Virus record (IMG/VR): IMGVR_UViG_3300031702_000025
Coordinates: 1-34,439 of that record
DNA from: a virus
DNA: 34,439 nucleotides
Strand: one strand, 5' to 3'
The notes beneath the pieces were generated by a model. It made no database searches, was not told where the DNA came from, and worked only from the letters and a program-made list of their open reading frames with translations. How positions within the stretch are numbered: position 1 is the first letter of the stretch; every line of letters begins with the position of its first letter. A program made the translations under genes and the position numbers. Shown here piece by piece: positions 12,994 through 31,256 of this stretch.

Positions 12994-13620
12994 ATGTGGT
13001 TCGTTGGAAATACAGAAATAGGTTTTATAGTAAACAGGGCCAGAGGGTTAACTATTGCAGGGATTCAATATCCTCGCAACATTTTTACGATATGGTCAAA
13101 AGAAGAACTTGCTGCAATTGGCGTAAAACCATACAGTGAGGTTCGTCTAGATTCACGCTACTACTCTGATGGTGCATTGACTCGCGCCGAAGTTGATGGA
13201 ACTATAGTTGGTACTTACGCTGGAGTAGCAAAGGATGTTGCTCAGTTAAAATCAGAAATGATGGATTCAGTTAAATCTCAAGTCTCTTCACTACAGGGTG
13301 ATGTTGATTGGTATTGGAGTAGAGCTTCAAAGGGTGGAACTGCTGTTCCAGATAGAATTCGTTATCACGCTGCAGCAATCTACACAGAGATGGAATCAAA
13401 AGAATCTGCTATTAGTGCATTGACAACTTTAGATGGAATCATTGCATATCAGAATCATCCAATGATTGAAACTAGTAAAGTGAAACACACATCAGCTGAA
13501 GGTGTTGTGACTTATGGCCCGCAAACAACTACATCTAATGTGGAAATTAACAAAGTTACTCATGGATGGTCATCTTTAAACCCAGTAGACCCATCTTTTG
13601 TTAGTTTGGTAGATGCATAA
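12994..13620 (+). CDS. Candidate assembly partner of the giant adhesin (208 aa)
   Basis: The start has TTAGGAGAA about 9 bases upstream. The N-terminal ~60 residues form a small domain (MWFVGNTEIGFIVNRARG, shortened). Residues ~75-105 are helical. Residues 105-130 read DWYWSRASKGGTAVPDRI and then an Ala/Tyr helix, matching the DWYISR......AVP region of the 102-residue protein at 788. That region is typical of tail fibre assembly proteins. With its place right after the 1153-residue adhesin, the likely role is chaperone or assembly factor of that adhesin. The C-terminal 70 residues are unassigned. Confidence 0.55.
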   Translation: MWFVGNTEIGFIVNRARGLTIAGIQYPRNIFTIWSKEELAAIGVKPYSEVRLDSRYYSDGALTRAEVDGTIVGTYAGVAKDVAQLKSEMMDSVKSQVSSLQGDVDWYWSRASKGGTAVPDRIRYHAAAIYTEMESKESAISALTTLDGIIAYQNHPMIETSKVKHTSAEGVVTYGPQTTTSNVEINKVTHGWSSLNPVDPSFVSLVDA

Positions 13621-13623
13621 ATA
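13616..13623 (+). promoter_or_regulatory. Candidate late promoter CATAAATA before gp17
   Basis: CATAAATA followed by G overlaps the stop codon of the 208-residue gene and lies about 100 bases upstream of the gp17 ATG. One base differs from the T4 octamer. The long leader it would give contains the minus-strand promoter at 13671-13699. Confidence 0.42.
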
Positions 13624-13670
13624 GTTTAAAGATTGAATAGATAAAACTGTTCTTTCTAAGGTACATACCT

Positions 13671-13699
13671 ATTATAACAAGGATGTTTTGTTCTGTCAA
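13671..13699 (-). promoter_or_regulatory. Perfect consensus sigma70-type promoter on the minus strand, antisense
   Basis: Read on the minus strand: TTGACA (13699-13694), 17-base spacer, TATAAT (13676-13671), with TG one base upstream of the -10 (extended -10). It points left into the 3' ends of the adhesin partner and giant adhesin genes, where no minus-strand gene is seen. It shares the 16-nt block ATCCTTGTTATAATAG with the minus promoter at 27378-27406. Confidence 0.75.
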
Positions 13700-13723: not shown

Positions 13724-15370
13724 ATGACTGACTTCGAACACTACCTCGGAAACCCCTTACTCAAGAAATCAAATGTTCCTGTTAATTGGGAGAAGGGGCA
13801 GATTCTTGAGTATCAGAAGTGTATGGAAGACCCCATATACTTTATCAAGAATTACATTAAGATTGTATCACTTGATTTAGGCCTTGTTCCTTTTGAACTG
13901 TACGACTTCCAAGAAGACATTGTAAACACAATACACGAAAACCGATTTACTATCTGTAAGTTGCCAAGACAGTCTGGTAAATCTACCACACTTGTCTCTT
14001 ATGTACTCCACTACATTCTATTTAATTCAAACATGAATGTTGCAATCCTTGCTAACAAAGCTGCAACCGCGAGAGATATTCTTGGTAGACTTCAACTTGC
14101 ATACGAGAACCTACCTAAGTGGTTACAACAAGGAGTTGTCTCTTGGAACAAGGGTTCTGTGGACTTAGAGAACGGCTCTAGAGTTGTTGCTTCGTCTACA
14201 TCATCCAGTGCAGTTCGTGGTGGTTCATACAACATGCTATTCTTAGATGAGTTTGCATTCGTTCCACAGAACGTAGCAGAAGACTTCTTTAGTTCTGTAT
14301 ACCCTACAATATCATCTGGTACTTCTACTAAAGTTGTTATCGTATCAACTCCCAATGGCATGAACATGTTCTATAAGTTGTGGACTGACGCAGAGAACAA
14401 AAGAAACTCCTATAATATCATAGATGTTCACTGGAGTCAAATACCCAACAGGGACGCAAAGTGGCGTGACGAAACAATTGCAAACACATCCCTAGAACAA
14501 TTTCAACGAGAGTTTGAGTGTGAGTTCTTAGGTTCTGCAAACACTCTTATCCACCCTGCCAAGATTAAGACAATGGCATTCCACAATCCTATTACATCAA
14601 ATGCTGGGTTGGATATGCATGAACGTCCAGTACCCAATGGAACCTACGTTCTTATTGCTGACGTGGCTCGAGGAACAAAGAATGATTACTCTGCATTTAT
14701 TGTCTTTGATGTTTCAACAGTCCCCTATAAGATTGTTGCTAAGTATCGTAACAATGAGATTAAACCATTACTATATCCAAACATTATTAGTGATGTTGCA
14801 CTCGCATATAACAATGCATACGTCTTAGTTGAAGTAAATGACATTGGCGAACAAGTTGCGACTGCTCTACAGTTTGACTTGGAGTACGAGAACCTTATCA
14901 TGGCAAGTATGCGTGGTCGTGCAGGTCAGGTGCTTGGTGGAGGGTTTTCGGGGGGCAAAGCGCAGTTGGGTGTACGAACAACCAAAGCAGTTAAAAAGAT
15001 GGGTTGTTCCAATATTAAACAAGTTATTGAATCAGACAAGTTAATTATCAATGACTATGAACTAATTAAAGAGTTATCTACCTTTATCCTTAAAGGCTCT
15101 TCTTATGAAGCAGAAGAGGGACATTCAGATGACTTGGCAATGTGTTGTGTATTGTTCGGGTGGATGATACAACAAACATATTTCAAAGAGTTAACAGACG
15201 ATGACATTCGTGCTAGAATGTATTCAGACCAACAGAATCAACTAGAGCAAGATATGGCCCCATTTGGATTCTTGGACGATGGTGTACAGTCTCCTTATGA
15301 GGATAACATTGTTGATGAATACGGACAAAGATGGAGTCCAGTAGTACGAAGTTATGAATCTGATTGGTAG
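13724..15370 (+). CDS. 17: Large terminase subunit gp17
   Basis: 548 residues from the ATG at 13724. An in-frame TTG at 13688 lies inside a minus-strand promoter and would add 12 unrelated residues, so the ATG (with TTTAGGA upstream) is preferred. Walker A is PRQSGKST (about 81-88), Walker B MLFLDE (about 171-176). The C-terminal RNase H-like nuclease shows an aspartate in LIADVARG (about 313), EVNDIGEQ (about 373) and GHSDDLAM (about 469). This is the packaging motor that translocates DNA through portal gp20 and cuts it at headful. It lacks its usual neighbour: gp16 is 4.8 kb upstream. Confidence 0.95.
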   Translation: MTDFEHYLGNPLLKKSNVPVNWEKGQILEYQKCMEDPIYFIKNYIKIVSLDLGLVPFELYDFQEDIVNTIHENRFTICKLPRQSGKSTTLVSYVLHYILFNSNMNVAILANKAATARDILGRLQLAYENLPKWLQQGVVSWNKGSVDLENGSRVVASSTSSSAVRGGSYNMLFLDEFAFVPQNVAEDFFSSVYPTISSGTSTKVVIVSTPNGMNMFYKLWTDAENKRNSYNIIDVHWSQIPNRDAKWRDETIANTSLEQFQREFECEFLGSANTLIHPAKIKTMAFHNPITSNAGLDMHERPVPNGTYVLIADVARGTKNDYSAFIVFDVSTVPYKIVAKYRNNEIKPLLYPNIISDVALAYNNAYVLVEVNDIGEQVATALQFDLEYENLIMASMRGRAGQVLGGGFSGGKAQLGVRTTKAVKKMGCSNIKQVIESDKLIINDYELIKELSTFILKGSSYEAEEGHSDDLAMCCVLFGWMIQQTYFKELTDDDIRARMYSDQQNQLEQDMAPFGFLDDGVQSPYEDNIVDEYGQRWSPVVRSYESDW

Positions 15371-15391: not shown

Positions 15392-15691
15392 CTACATAAT
15401 ATCAATAATATCGTTTACTAGTTTTAAATGACAGTTTGAACACACGACTTTACAAACACTGATTAGTTGATTAACTTCAGTTCTTGATTCTTCGTTCAAC
15501 CCTTTTCTTTTAGTTAGTTTTCGAATATCCTTTTCGTGAGGATAGAACTGGAGACAGGCGGTTTCAGATTCACCACAGTAATGACAGGACTTTTCGCCAA
15601 GATATTCATTAACCCATATCTTGCGAGCCCTGTAATTTCTCTGTGATACCCTCTTAATGGTATCTTTATATTTCTGATAGTGTTCCGACAT
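15392..15691 (-). CDS. HNH-type endonuclease (possible homing endonuclease)
   Basis: 99 residues and the only convincing minus-strand gene here, placed between gp17 and gp18. It has a basic N-terminus, C36-H-Y-C39-G, then LQFYPHEKD (H52), and C84-S-N-C87-H88. The two CxxC pairs form the zinc site usual in small HNH nucleases. The usual F-H-H catalytic pair is replaced by F-Y-P-H, so activity is uncertain. Free-standing HNH genes in T4-like phages are often selfish mobile genes. Its ATG sits five bases after a minus-strand CATAAATA. Confidence 0.72.
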   Translation of the reverse strand: MSEHYQKYKDTIKRVSQRNYRARKIWVNEYLGEKSCHYCGESETACLQFYPHEKDIRKLTKRKGLNEESRTEVNQLISVCKVVCSNCHLKLVNDIIDIM

Positions 15692-24923: not shown

Positions 24924-24931
24924 TATAAATA
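24924..24931 (+). promoter_or_regulatory. Late promoter TATAAATA before uvsY
   Basis: Exact TATAAATA located 115 bases before the uvsY ATG. The expected start, about six bases on, is G24937, the first base of the 10-bp stem described next. Confidence 0.78.
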
Positions 24932-25045: not shown

Positions 25046-25474
25046 ATGACACTAGATGATTTGCAGGCATCAGCCGCACACGACTTGAAGATGGACAACT
25101 TAGAACTCGGTGATGAGTCTATGAAGTCTGCATCACTTCACCAAAAATACCTAACCATATACAACAACTTCAGACAACTAGTTCTCTTAAAACAGGGCGA
25201 GTATCATGTGCTCTATAGAAATAAATGGGAGTACTATGGAGGTAAGTCTGACGCTTCAGTTTATCGTGACAACCCATTCGATCATAAAATACTTAAAGCA
25301 GACTTGCACATATATCTGGATTCTGATATTGACTTGATCAAAGCAAAACAAAAAGTAGAATACTTCAAGGTATGTCAAGATACTTGTGAACGTATTCTGA
25401 AACAAGTCGGCACTCGTAATTGGGAAATCAAAAACGCAATAGAGTGGCGTAAATTTGTAGATGGTGTTGTATAA
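25046..25474 (+). CDS. uvsY: Recombination mediator UvsY
   Basis: 142 residues (T4 UvsY is 137). It is mostly helical, with HQKYLTIYNNFRQLVLLKQG, shortened here, and YRNKWEYYGGKSDASVY, the conserved single-strand-binding core. The LHIYLDSDIDLIKAKQKVEY stretch matches the oligomerisation region of UvsY. It loads recombinase UvsX on gp32-coated single-stranded DNA. The stop is immediately followed by the GTG start of uvsW, the same pairing as in T4. No UvsX gene is present in this window. Confidence 0.88.
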   Translation: MTLDDLQASAAHDLKMDNLELGDESMKSASLHQKYLTIYNNFRQLVLLKQGEYHVLYRNKWEYYGGKSDASVYRDNPFDHKILKADLHIYLDSDIDLIKAKQKVEYFKVCQDTCERILKQVGTRNWEIKNAIEWRKFVDGVV

Positions 25475-26950
25475 GTGACAAAAGTTACAAAGAAGAATGA
25501 GGTGTACTTAGAAGTATCAGCTGAACCCTCTACTGCTCGTTCGTTATCAGACCATTTCACATTCGAAGTGCCTGGCGCTAAGTTTATGCCGGCATATCGC
25601 AATCGGATATGGGATGGAAAAATAAGACTATATTCTCCACAAACGGGAGAACTTTACCTTGGACTTCTAGGATACCTAGAGAAATGGTTAGAGGATTGGG
25701 AAGAACCATATGAAATTAGCAAGGAGTTAAAAGATGAAAAACAACTGGATAGAGAAATACTCAATGGGTTCATCACTGGACTTAAGCTTAAAGCTAGAGG
25801 AAACCCTATTGTGCCACGCGACTACCAAGTGGATGCCGTGGATTTTGCCATTAGAAAACATCGTGCTTTGTTGCTTAGTCCTACTGCTTCGGGTAAGTCA
25901 CTCATAATCTATATTCTTGTCAGGTACTATAAGTTACTGATGAGAGAACAGCCACAGGACAGGACACTAATACTTGTTCCTACAACATCATTAGTCGAAC
26001 AGATGTACTCAGACTTTGTTGATTATGGCTGGAGTGAAGGTAACATGCAGAAGGTGTATAGTGGACATGACAGAGAGGTTACACATCCTGTAGTTATATC
26101 CACATGGCAATCACTGTATAAAATGCCCAAGTCATACTTTGACTGTTTTGGATTGGTTATCGGTGATGAAGCTCATCTATTTAAAGCAAAGTCTTTGACT
26201 TCTATCTTGACTAACCTAGATCAGTGTAAGTATCGTTTTGGTTTGACAGGTACACTTGATGGTATGCAAACACATCGTTTAGTTTTAGAAGGACTGTTTG
26301 GTTCTCTGAAGAAAGTTATAACCACAAAGAAGTTGATTGATTCAAAGACACTTGCTTCATTTAAGATTAAAGCTTTGGTTATGACTTACTCTGATGAAGA
26401 GTGTAAGATTGTTAAGGGTATGAACTATCAAGATGAGATGGATTACATAGTAACACACGCAAAGAGAAATAAGTTCATAAAAGACTTGACACTTACTCTA
26501 AAAGGTAATACACTAGTATTGTTCCAATTCGTAGAGAAACATGGAAACATCTTACATGAGATGATTCGATCGGCTACCACTAGAAGGGTATTCTACGTTT
26601 ATGGTGGGACAGACACTAAGACTAGGGAAGACATTCGTGCGATTACAGAGAACGAGAAGGATGCTATCATTGTTGCATCTTATGGTACTTTCTCTACTGG
26701 TATTAACATTCGTAATCTACACAATATTATCTTCTCTAGTCCTAGTAAATCTAGAGTTCGTACTCTACAAAGTATCGGTAGGGGATTGCGTAAGAGTGAG
26801 ACTAAGGATAGTGCTACTCTTTTTGATATTGCAGATGACTTCTCACACAAGTCTAAACGCAACTTCACAATAAATCATTTTCAAGAACGTATAAATATAT
26901 ATGCAGAGGAAGAGTTTGACTACGAAATTACAAGGATAAAAGTAAAATGA
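25475..26950 (+). CDS. uvsW: Superfamily 2 helicase UvsW
   Basis: 491 residues, close to T4 UvsW. Walker A SPTASGKS (135-142), motif II DEAH (231-234), motif III FGLTGT (255-260), and motif VI QSIGRGLRKS (about 431-440). An N-terminal ~90-residue domain with RNRIWDGKIRLYSPQTGELY, shortened, is the substrate-binding domain typical of UvsW. It unwinds R-loops and branched recombination intermediates and in T4 ends origin-dependent replication. The start is GTG, directly after the uvsY stop. Its end overlaps the next ATG by four bases. Confidence 0.93.
   Translation: MTKVTKKNEVYLEVSAEPSTARSLSDHFTFEVPGAKFMPAYRNRIWDGKIRLYSPQTGELYLGLLGYLEKWLEDWEEPYEISKELKDEKQLDREILNGFITGLKLKARGNPIVPRDYQVDAVDFAIRKHRALLLSPTASGKSLIIYILVRYYKLLMREQPQDRTLILVPTTSLVEQMYSDFVDYGWSEGNMQKVYSGHDREVTHPVVISTWQSLYKMPKSYFDCFGLVIGDEAHLFKAKSLTSILTNLDQCKYRFGLTGTLDGMQTHRLVLEGLFGSLKKVITTKKLIDSKTLASFKIKALVMTYSDEECKIVKGMNYQDEMDYIVTHAKRNKFIKDLTLTLKGNTLVLFQFVEKHGNILHEMIRSATTRRVFYVYGGTDTKTREDIRAITENEKDAIIVASYGTFSTGINIRNLHNIIFSSPSKSRVRTLQSIGRGLRKSETKDSATLFDIADDFSHKSKRNFTINHFQERINIYAEEEFDYEITRIKVK
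26890..26897 (+). promoter_or_regulatory. Possible late promoter TATAAATA inside the end of uvsW
   Basis: Exact TATAAATA followed by TATATG, 50 bases before the ATG at 26947. It lies inside coding sequence, so it may be chance, but the distance suits the LSm-like gene. Confidence 0.35.
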
Positions 26951-27348
26951 TTGCAGAGAATATAATTTTAAAGTTAAATAGTGGCGAAGAGATAGTGTGT
27001 AAGGTTACTAGTGCAGAAGAGTCTGTGATATACGAAATAGAGAATCCATTACTAGTTATTTCAGAGCCTGTGTACACACGACATGGTGTTGAAGAATCTA
27101 TATCATTCAAGAGATGGATACACTTCTCTGAGGAATCAGTATTCCGTATTAATAAGAATAGTGTTATGTTAATGTGTGGTGCGTCTGAAGGACTATCTAA
27201 GTTCTACGAGTATTGTGTTACAAAGATGCAGAATGAGTTTGATGAGGATTCTATCTGGATGGAAGCAACTAATGATGATCTAGATGAGATTGCAATGGAA
27301 GAAGCATTGGAACAGTTTGATACTCCAATGTCTAAAACAGTACATTAG
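26947..27348 (+). CDS. Small protein with LSm-like N-terminal fold (133 aa)
   Basis: Overlaps the uvsW end by four bases (ATGA), so translation is coupled. Residues 5-65 (IILKLNSGEEIVCKVTSAEE, then YEIENPLLVISEP) show the five-strand pattern of Sm/LSm-type barrels common in small proteins of marine T4-like phages. The C-terminal ~40 residues are strongly acidic (NDDLDEIAMEEALEQFD). Possible RNA- or protein-binding role; no function known. The late transcription coactivator gp33 was considered because gp55 is next, but no sequence support was seen. Confidence 0.55.
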   Translation: MIAENIILKLNSGEEIVCKVTSAEESVIYEIENPLLVISEPVYTRHGVEESISFKRWIHFSEESVFRINKNSVMLMCGASEGLSKFYEYCVTKMQNEFDEDSIWMEATNDDLDEIAMEEALEQFDTPMSKTVH

Positions 27349-27377
27349 ATTTAAACTACTTTCTCTCTAACACAGCT

Positions 27378-27406
27378 ATTATAACAAGGATTCTAAACTC
27401 TGTCAA
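27378..27406 (-). promoter_or_regulatory. Perfect consensus sigma70-type promoter on the minus strand
   Basis: On the minus strand: TTGACA (27406-27401), 17-base spacer, TATAAT (27383-27378), with an extended -10 TG. It points left, antisense to the LSm-like gene and uvsW. Its -35 region, TGTCAATAG on the plus strand, is an inverted copy of CTATTGACA at the plus promoter 27443, making a divergent pair. No minus-strand gene lies downstream. Confidence 0.75.
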
Positions 27407-27442: not shown

Positions 27443-27471
27443 TTGACAAACCTGTGTAATTAAAGTATAAT
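27443..27471 (+). promoter_or_regulatory. Perfect consensus sigma70-type promoter for gp55
   Basis: TTGACA (27443-27448), 17-base spacer, TATAAT (27466-27471). The expected start near 27478 lies past an in-frame ATG at 27474, which excludes that ATG as the gp55 start. It drives sigma factor 55 and probably genes 47 and 46, before late transcription begins. The gap 27349-27515 otherwise holds only the opposing promoter. Confidence 0.9.
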
Positions 27472-27515
27472 ATATGAATAGTTGCAAAATACAAGCAACG
27501 GAATGTGGAGTTATA

Positions 27516-28079
27516 ATGACTAAAAAGAAAAAGGGTGTTCACTACGTCAACAATGCAGACTTTCTTGCCGCAATGGCAGAGTGGAAAGACAAATGCAAAG
27601 ACGCTGAAGAACTAGGCGACCCACAACCGCCAGTTACCAACTACATAGGTGAGTGTTTTTTAAAGATTGCAAATCATCTATCGTATCGGCCAAACTTCAT
27701 CAACTATACCTATAGAGATGAAATGATTTCAGATGGAATAGAGAACTGTTTACAATACTGTAGTAACTTCAATCCAGAGAAATCCAAAAACCCTTTTGCA
27801 TATTTTACTCAAATTATTTACTATGCATTTCTTAGAAGGATTGCAAAAGAGAAAAAGCAACAACATGTAAAACACCAAATCATTTCTAATATGAATATTG
27901 ATGTGATGATGGATGGTGATTCAGCAGCTGCTGGATATGTAGAGTATCTACAGAAGAACTTCTTACCCGATGAAGCGGTATATAAACCAAAGAAGAAAGT
28001 GAAGAAAGAACCGAAAGGTCTTGAGAATTTTTATGATGATAAGGATGTACAAATAAATGAAGATAGCACTAATAACTGA
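27516..28079 (+). CDS. 55: Late transcription sigma factor gp55
   Basis: 187 residues (T4 gp55 is 185). The ATG at 27516 has TGGAG five bases upstream; an in-frame ATG at 27474 overlaps the promoter and is rejected. Conserved blocks are YRDEMISDGIENCLQYCSNF and NPFAYFTQIIYYAFLRRIAKEK, the sigma region 2-like core that recognises TATAAATA. The late promoters in this window fit its activity. Near the C-terminus GLENFYDD resembles a short hydrophobic-acidic clamp-binding epitope, but 13 further residues follow. The end overlaps gene 47 by 23 bases. Confidence 0.93.
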   Translation: MTKKKKGVHYVNNADFLAAMAEWKDKCKDAEELGDPQPPVTNYIGECFLKIANHLSYRPNFINYTYRDEMISDGIENCLQYCSNFNPEKSKNPFAYFTQIIYYAFLRRIAKEKKQQHVKHQIISNMNIDVMMDGDSAAAGYVEYLQKNFLPDEAVYKPKKKVKKEPKGLENFYDDKDVQINEDSTNN

Positions 28080-31112: not shown

Positions 31113-31161
31113 AGTTTTGAAAACATCTTGACTTGTTGTAAAAACAATGGTATAATGGTTA
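31113..31161 (+). promoter_or_regulatory. First of two tandem host-type promoters
   Basis: TTGACT (31128-31133), 17-base spacer, TATAAT (31151-31156). The 20 bases up to and including TTGAC (31113-31132) are repeated exactly at 31208-31227, and TATAATGGTTA also recurs. A 13-codon ORF (31168-31209) lies between the two promoters. Confidence 0.8.
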
Positions 31162-31207
31162 CATAAGATGAAAAGAACGAAGTGGACAGTATATAAAAGT
31201 CTAATTT

Positions 31208-31256
31208 AGTTTTGAAAACATCTTGACAATTGTTGTCAAAACATGTATAATGGTTA
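31208..31256 (+). promoter_or_regulatory. Second tandem promoter with palindromic operator over the -35
   Basis: TTGACA (31223-31228), 17-base spacer, TATAAT (31246-31251). TTGACAA-TTG-TTGTCAA (31223-31239) is a perfect inverted repeat covering the -35, a good operator shape. The copy 95 bases upstream keeps the -35 but has an incomplete palindrome. Confidence 0.85.

Follow-up and report, generated by a model that had tools for sequence, protein, structure and literature searches.

Genomic context of the antisense promoters

The analyzed stretch of DNA (34,439 bp; hereafter, the window) comes from a T4-like marine phage and covers only part of its genome, whose full length, by analogy with Methylophilales phage Melnitz, is ~141 kb. 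Melnitz is also the closest annotated relative over uvsW-LSm-gp55, with 72.6% nucleotide identity across the whole 2.6 kb, and the gp17 sequences of the two phages are 78.7% identical. Genes follow the order tail/neck genes, gp17, sheath, tube, portal, protease, capsid, uvsY, uvsW, LSm, gp55, gp47, gp46 ... gp45, some middle genes being named by position against Melnitz. The plus strand encodes the terminase large subunit gp17 (13724–15370; phrog_2, E 1e-70), uvsY (25046–25474; phrog_231), the helicase uvsW (25475–26950; phrog_16, E 9e-109), an Sm-like (LSm) protein (26947–27348; PF16243 Sm_like, above cut-off) and the late sigma factor gp55 (ORF 27474–28079; phrog_234, E 9e-62), whose conserved start is, from alignment, probably the ATG at 27516. 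Late promoters of the sequence TATAAATA are located upstream of uvsY (24924–24931, plus strand) and 57 nt upstream of LSm (26890–26897, plus strand), and gp17 is associated with a late-promoter-like CATAAATA (13616–13623, plus strand). Neither Rfam nor tRNA scanning gave a match in the window. Directly 3′ of gp17, the minus strand contains an HNH endonuclease-like ORF (15392–15691), at the place where Melnitz has a minus-strand ORF of unknown function.

Two minus-strand promoters share a 16-nt block

The TTGACA-17-TATAAT elements of T4 and cyanophage early promoters are used by host σ70 RNA polymerase (PMC2988021, PMC2984593). Perfect TTGACA-N17-TATAAT sites occurred five times in the window, compared to 0.05 expected from Markov shuffles. 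Three of these are early promoters in sense orientation (27443, upstream of gp55; 31223; 32816) and two are antisense (27406–27378 and 13699–13671). The former of the antisense sites lies in the LSm/gp55 gap (27378–27406, minus strand), matches the hexamers at 12 of 12 positions with a spacer of 17 bp (16–18 bp being the range for host-σ70 early promoters), and diverges from the equally perfect σ70 promoter of gp55 (27443–27471, plus strand), the –35 boxes of the two being separated by 36 bp. As the initial annotation had stated, it points into LSm, the first gene in its path, and uvsW. The second antisense promoter (13671–13699, minus strand) maps between the ORF at 12994–13620 and gp17 and is found in close relatives only. 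No plausible minus-strand gene follows either promoter within thousands of bases, in agreement with their description as promoters with no gene behind them. As a separate observation, an early promoter segment upstream of the phrog_1221 gene (window 31113–31250) is duplicated, with GTTTTGAAAACATCTTGAC at both 31114 and 31209, 95 bp apart.

The 16-nt block that had drawn attention to the pair, ATCCTTGTTATAATAG, comprises the end of the spacer and the –10 element and is exact at 13669–13684 and 27376–27391 (both minus strand). A search of both strands of the window recovered these two copies and nothing else, even at 3 mismatches. The same two copies, and no more, are present on a 50.9-kb contig from the species of the window; as the window is a fragment, more copies in the same genome are possible. 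The two copies resemble each other beyond the block (TTGACAGA, TTAGA.AGAA), with a local score of 69 (shuffle 95% point, 52; maximum, 73), so that a wider homology is suggestive at best. A plain 16-mer scan of viral contigs returned 41 stretches, 12 of which had a –35 box, all from the species of the window or near siblings; the remaining stretches look like chance matches. A scan for TTGACA-N10-ATCCTTGTTATAAT gave no match among viral contigs, in a search that may omit very near records. The block itself thus appears minor, being found inside a promoter context only in the window's species and its nearest siblings. Its proposed role as the defining site, bound in the spacer/–10 region, was not supported: the spacers of relatives are quite different, and the extra feature seen among them is instead a dyad at the predicted start site (see below).

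The promoter upstream of gp55 is conserved across marine T4-like phages

An antisense σ70-type promoter in the LSm/gp55 gap, divergent from the gp55 promoter, was present in every reference marine T4-like phage examined. Mosig, HTVC008M, S-PM2, P-SSM2, P-SSM4 and Syn1 carry it with 0–2 mismatches, while Melnitz retains a second TTGACA, a –10 element and the leader, its first –35 box being degenerate. According to simple ORF calls made for this analysis, the gp55-side site is the sole intergenic antisense promoter at ≤1 mismatch in S-PM2 and Syn1, and one of two in both Mosig and HTVC008M. A minus-strand promoter that diverges from that of gp55 was likewise found at this position in most of 80 IMG/VR loci, which had been picked by gp55 protein similarity rather than by promoter. 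Counting distinct 150-bp gaps, 98.7% of 79 cyanophage loci harbored a minus-strand promoter upstream of gp55 at ≤2 mismatches (shuffles, 4%). For 59 distinct window-like loci the value was 81% at ≤2 mismatches (shuffles, 15%) and 100% at ≤3 (shuffles, 60%); about one fifth of them, including Melnitz, sit at three mismatches because the first –35 box is degenerate. When the 200-bp upstream region was considered, all 86 cyanophage-type loci matched at ≤2 mismatches, a few with a different site as the best match. The sequences counted are related and hence non-independent, in a set that spans cyanophages, pelagiphages and methylophages.

Most relatives keep a spacing of 17 bp. Cyanophage spacers read CCTCAGAAACTCAG, quite unlike those of window-like phages, in which the promoter typically reads TTGACAAGCCCTTGACAACTTGGTATAACAGCTATGCTGGGTTTGAGAATGA and contains a tandem TTGACA, its two TTGAC boxes being spaced by 11 bp. 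Matches to this tandem were mainly antisense at gp55, down to a gp55 identity of ~45–50%, with some sense copies elsewhere. We also considered the tandem, which gives TGTCA repeats on the plus strand, as a Pho box and rejected this as the main idea, since in cyanophages and pelagiphages the promoter is present but the tandem is not. A perfect promoter also occurs upstream of gp55 in Sinorhizobium phage phiM12. Neither T2 (within 200 bp of gp55) nor Ps15, where the genes nearly abut, has such a promoter at gp55. The phiM12 promoter (NC_027204.1, locus L431) is of the same class, carries the dyad CAGGAATGTCCTG and faces an annotated 50-aa minus-strand ORF at 346–498. Upstream of Melnitz gp55, a 32-aa minus-strand ORF is annotated over the divergent promoter region (MZ577096.1, 132367–132462) and is probably a spurious call.

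Short AT-rich intergenic regions do give rise to promoter-like matches, as the ~15% of shuffled window-like gaps passing at ≤2 mismatches illustrate, and consensus-like promoters might therefore accumulate by chance or drift without any function. Given the near-universal conservation across divergent phages, the covariation of the dyad and the 17-bp spacing kept in most relatives, we regard this explanation as very improbable overall; it is strongly disfavored for the gp55 copy and possible for the gp17 copy. Taken together, the gp55-side site represents in the window a conserved, predicted σ70-type promoter, back to back with that of gp55 and facing LSm-uvsW-uvsY with no gene behind it.

Anchored on the –10 element, conservation extends from the –35 box to ~18 nt past the –10 (~+12) and then falls, so the body of the RNA is not conserved. 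This pattern bears on two alternatives. Under the first, the region between gp55 and LSm would encode a small regulatory RNA or a very short peptide, expressed from this promoter. In window-like phages the first 20–30 nt are conserved (GGGTTTGAGAATGA), the neighboring gene encodes an Sm-like protein, and in phiM12 the promoter faces an annotated ORF. However, no consistent ORF, no consistent minus-strand terminator and, in the window, no Rfam match was found, and the cyanophage RNA is not conserved past ~+12, which makes this alternative quite unlikely. A short peptide starting at the leader ATG was rejected, as stops break the frame in relatives.

According to the second alternative, the site is a divergent partner of the gp55 promoter that sets gp55 dose and timing at the DNA level, via polymerase competition or supercoiling, the antisense RNA being a by-product. 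The end of conservation near +12 would fit, as would the gp55 sense promoter adjoining the antisense promoter in the loci listed; in S-PM2 the two –35 boxes are just 5 bp apart, so that two polymerases could hardly bind together. The gap between the –35 boxes is variable, though (5 bp in S-PM2, 36 bp in the window), the dyad was noted on the antisense side, and the gp17 copy lacks a divergent sense σ70 promoter. We consider such a partnership unlikely, albeit worth keeping in mind.

A dyad centered on the predicted start site

Six to seven bases past the –10 element, relatives contain a dyad centered on the predicted transcription start, whose arms differ by clade yet remain complementary (AACTCT/AGGGTT, AACCTT/GAGGTT, AACAGT/GCTGTT, AACGG/CCGTT, AGGCA/TGCCT, GGGTA/TACCC and GCGA/TCGC). 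Across 34 representatives, one of which (L009) is a mis-picked site, the mean dyad score was 4.69, about ten standard deviations above shuffles (3.04 ± 0.17). Promoter-like sites of the same genomes (n = 128) showed no excess as a set (2.79 vs. 2.72 shuffled). The dyad is strong in relatives and perfect in the gp17 copy of the window (AGGTATGTACCT; 13659–13670, minus strand, centered on the predicted start near 13664), but weak in the gp55 copy (score 2.5; AGCTGTGTTAG; 27367–27377, minus strand, predicted start near 27371). The present promoter has the same elements as T4 and cyanophage early promoters; it differs from them in being antisense and gene-less and, as a class, in this dyad, absent from promoter-like sites as a set. 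From these comparisons, the dyad rather than the spacer appears to be the extra feature of what looks like a small promoter class, to which the gp55-side promoter, despite its weak dyad in the window, would belong. A covarying dyad on a start site is an uncommon promoter feature.

Non-Watson–Crick arm positions comprised 20 G–T on the minus strand, no A–C and 20 other mismatches, the G–T count including shared ancestry. The occurrence of G–T without A–C is easier to reconcile with structure in the minus single strand than with a duplex operator. It also speaks against a hairpin in a plus-strand RNA at the 3′ end of LSm, a reading that was rejected because the wobble-type positions are G–T on the minus strand and never A–C. 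The antisense RNA itself is unlikely to form such a hairpin, since its predicted start lies downstream of the left arm.

Single-strand structure of this kind would also suit an R-loop replication origin. At T4 oriF (uvsY), a promoter-initiated R-loop leaves the non-template strand exposed (PMC3016281); by analogy, the antisense transcript might prime leading-strand synthesis, with the dyad structuring the displaced non-template strand. The gene-less early promoter adjoins uvsY/uvsW, and its transcript, like that of oriF, could act other than as mRNA; the T4 promoter, however, is MotA-dependent (PMC3016281). There was no GC skew switch at the gp55 site, an uninformative test for an origin because nearly all genes are on one strand. 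As the class also has sense copies in front of ordinary genes and the wobble count in part reflects shared ancestry, an origin seems improbable.

PeSL mobile cassettes of T4-type phages reportedly also combine a strong σ70 promoter with a hairpin, in intergenic gaps and at several places, the hairpins being described as terminators. The dyad described here is short, centered on the start and devoid of a U tract, and no terminator-like site was detected at either window promoter.

Antisense and sense copies differ in associated late motifs

The two copies in the window differ in status. The gp17 copy was seen only where gp17 identity is at least 95%, Melnitz and others being without it, and on this distribution it is a recent, lineage-specific addition, the gp55 copy being old and widespread. 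Its 16-nt identity with the latter suggests copying or conversion within the lineage, although similarity outside the block is marginal. As the gp17 copy is situated between CATAAATA (13616) and gp17, its transcript would cross that late promoter ~45 bp past its own start.

A scan with the cyanophage signature gave 119 matches, 97 of which were antisense at gp55; five of the 22 others lie before homologues of GC49/649. S-PM2 (162772) and Syn1 (16542) each possess one sense copy of the class, located downstream of the gene for base plate lysozyme and ahead of the hypothetical genes T4-GC 49/649. In counts that ignore relatedness, the late motif NATAAATA occurred ≤45 nt from the start in 11 of 19 distinct non-gp55 (sense) copies versus none of 85 antisense copies, and it was also missing just downstream of either antisense copy in the window. 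Overlapping early plus late promoters are known for cyanophage middle genes (PMC2984593). The sense copies resemble these and look like early-plus-late promoters; the antisense copies do not and look early only.

With sense copies in existence, the class is not exclusively antisense. The initial annotation, which proposed a regulated antisense class, had staked this on other copies not all preceding sense genes and on the block recurring elsewhere or in relatives. This check goes half against the proposal: some copies of the wider class do precede sense genes, but most cyanophage-pattern matches are antisense at gp55. What stands of the proposal is a gp55-side promoter that is special, conserved in position and part of a class with an element that ordinary early promoters lack.

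A proposed early antisense transcript against a late unit

As it is kept in nearly every relative checked, this promoter with no gene behind it probably serves a function, and the likeliest one is the production of an early antisense RNA against late genes. Specifically, we tentatively favor, at somewhat less than an even chance, an antisense promoter that is active only early and counteracts the late uvsY-uvsW-LSm unit. Host σ70 RNA polymerase would use it immediately after infection and transcribe antisense through LSm and uvsW, and this antisense or convergent transcription would keep the late unit silent until late transcription, which depends on gp55, sets in. The UvsW protein of T4 is expressed from a late promoter and unwinds the R-loops at origins (PMC3016281). 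Its absence early on would therefore make sense, as UvsW produced too soon would remove R-loops on which origin replication depends. Lacking the late motif, antisense copies should switch off once late transcription starts. The start-site dyad would probably modulate initiation, either as a non-template-strand hairpin or as the site of a regulator, and the gp17 copy might be the same device, recently placed a further time and directed at a second late gene. Because late promoters already need gp55, silencing early in infection may be redundant. The fuller version, a cis-regulatory switch of marine T4-like phages in which an early-only antisense promoter, its initiation modulated by a non-template-strand hairpin, holds the uvsW recombination unit (or an adjacent R-loop origin) until gp55 takes over and is transferable to further late genes, gp17 among them, is conceivable but doubtful.

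The closest precedent is the CfrI antisense RNA of cyanophage S-PM2 (~225 nt, at psbA and a homing endonuclease gene), whose expression was shown (PMC2984593, PMC5931967). Both it and the present RNA, here predicted from orientation, run against phage genes and are encoded by marine T4-like phages; the putative promoter described here differs in its location at gp55/uvsW and in its conservation in many phages. For Melnitz, 31 early and 15 late promoters have been listed in a paper whose main text does not use the word "antisense" (PMC9004378). No earlier description of the gp55 antisense promoter was found in the papers searched, so that an earlier notice elsewhere is possible. A gene-less promoter kept across cyanophages, pelagiphages and methylophages, located next to gp55 and directed at the gene for the helicase by which T4 terminates origin replication, offers a concrete place to study early/late timing in marine T4-like phages, which lack MotA/AsiA.

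Two further observations concern Melnitz promoters. Three perfect TTGACA-17-TATAAT minus-strand promoters, ~75 bp apart, lie over tiny plus-strand ORFs at 72.85–73.07 kb (MZ577096.1; L005 22850–23070) and possibly drive small RNAs. In addition, early promoters of this phage (e.g. at 3952, 6198, 33499, 38992, 66590 and 67247) share a recurring conserved spacer, TTTGTT....AACATG, and similar spacers are present in the window at 31128 and 31223.
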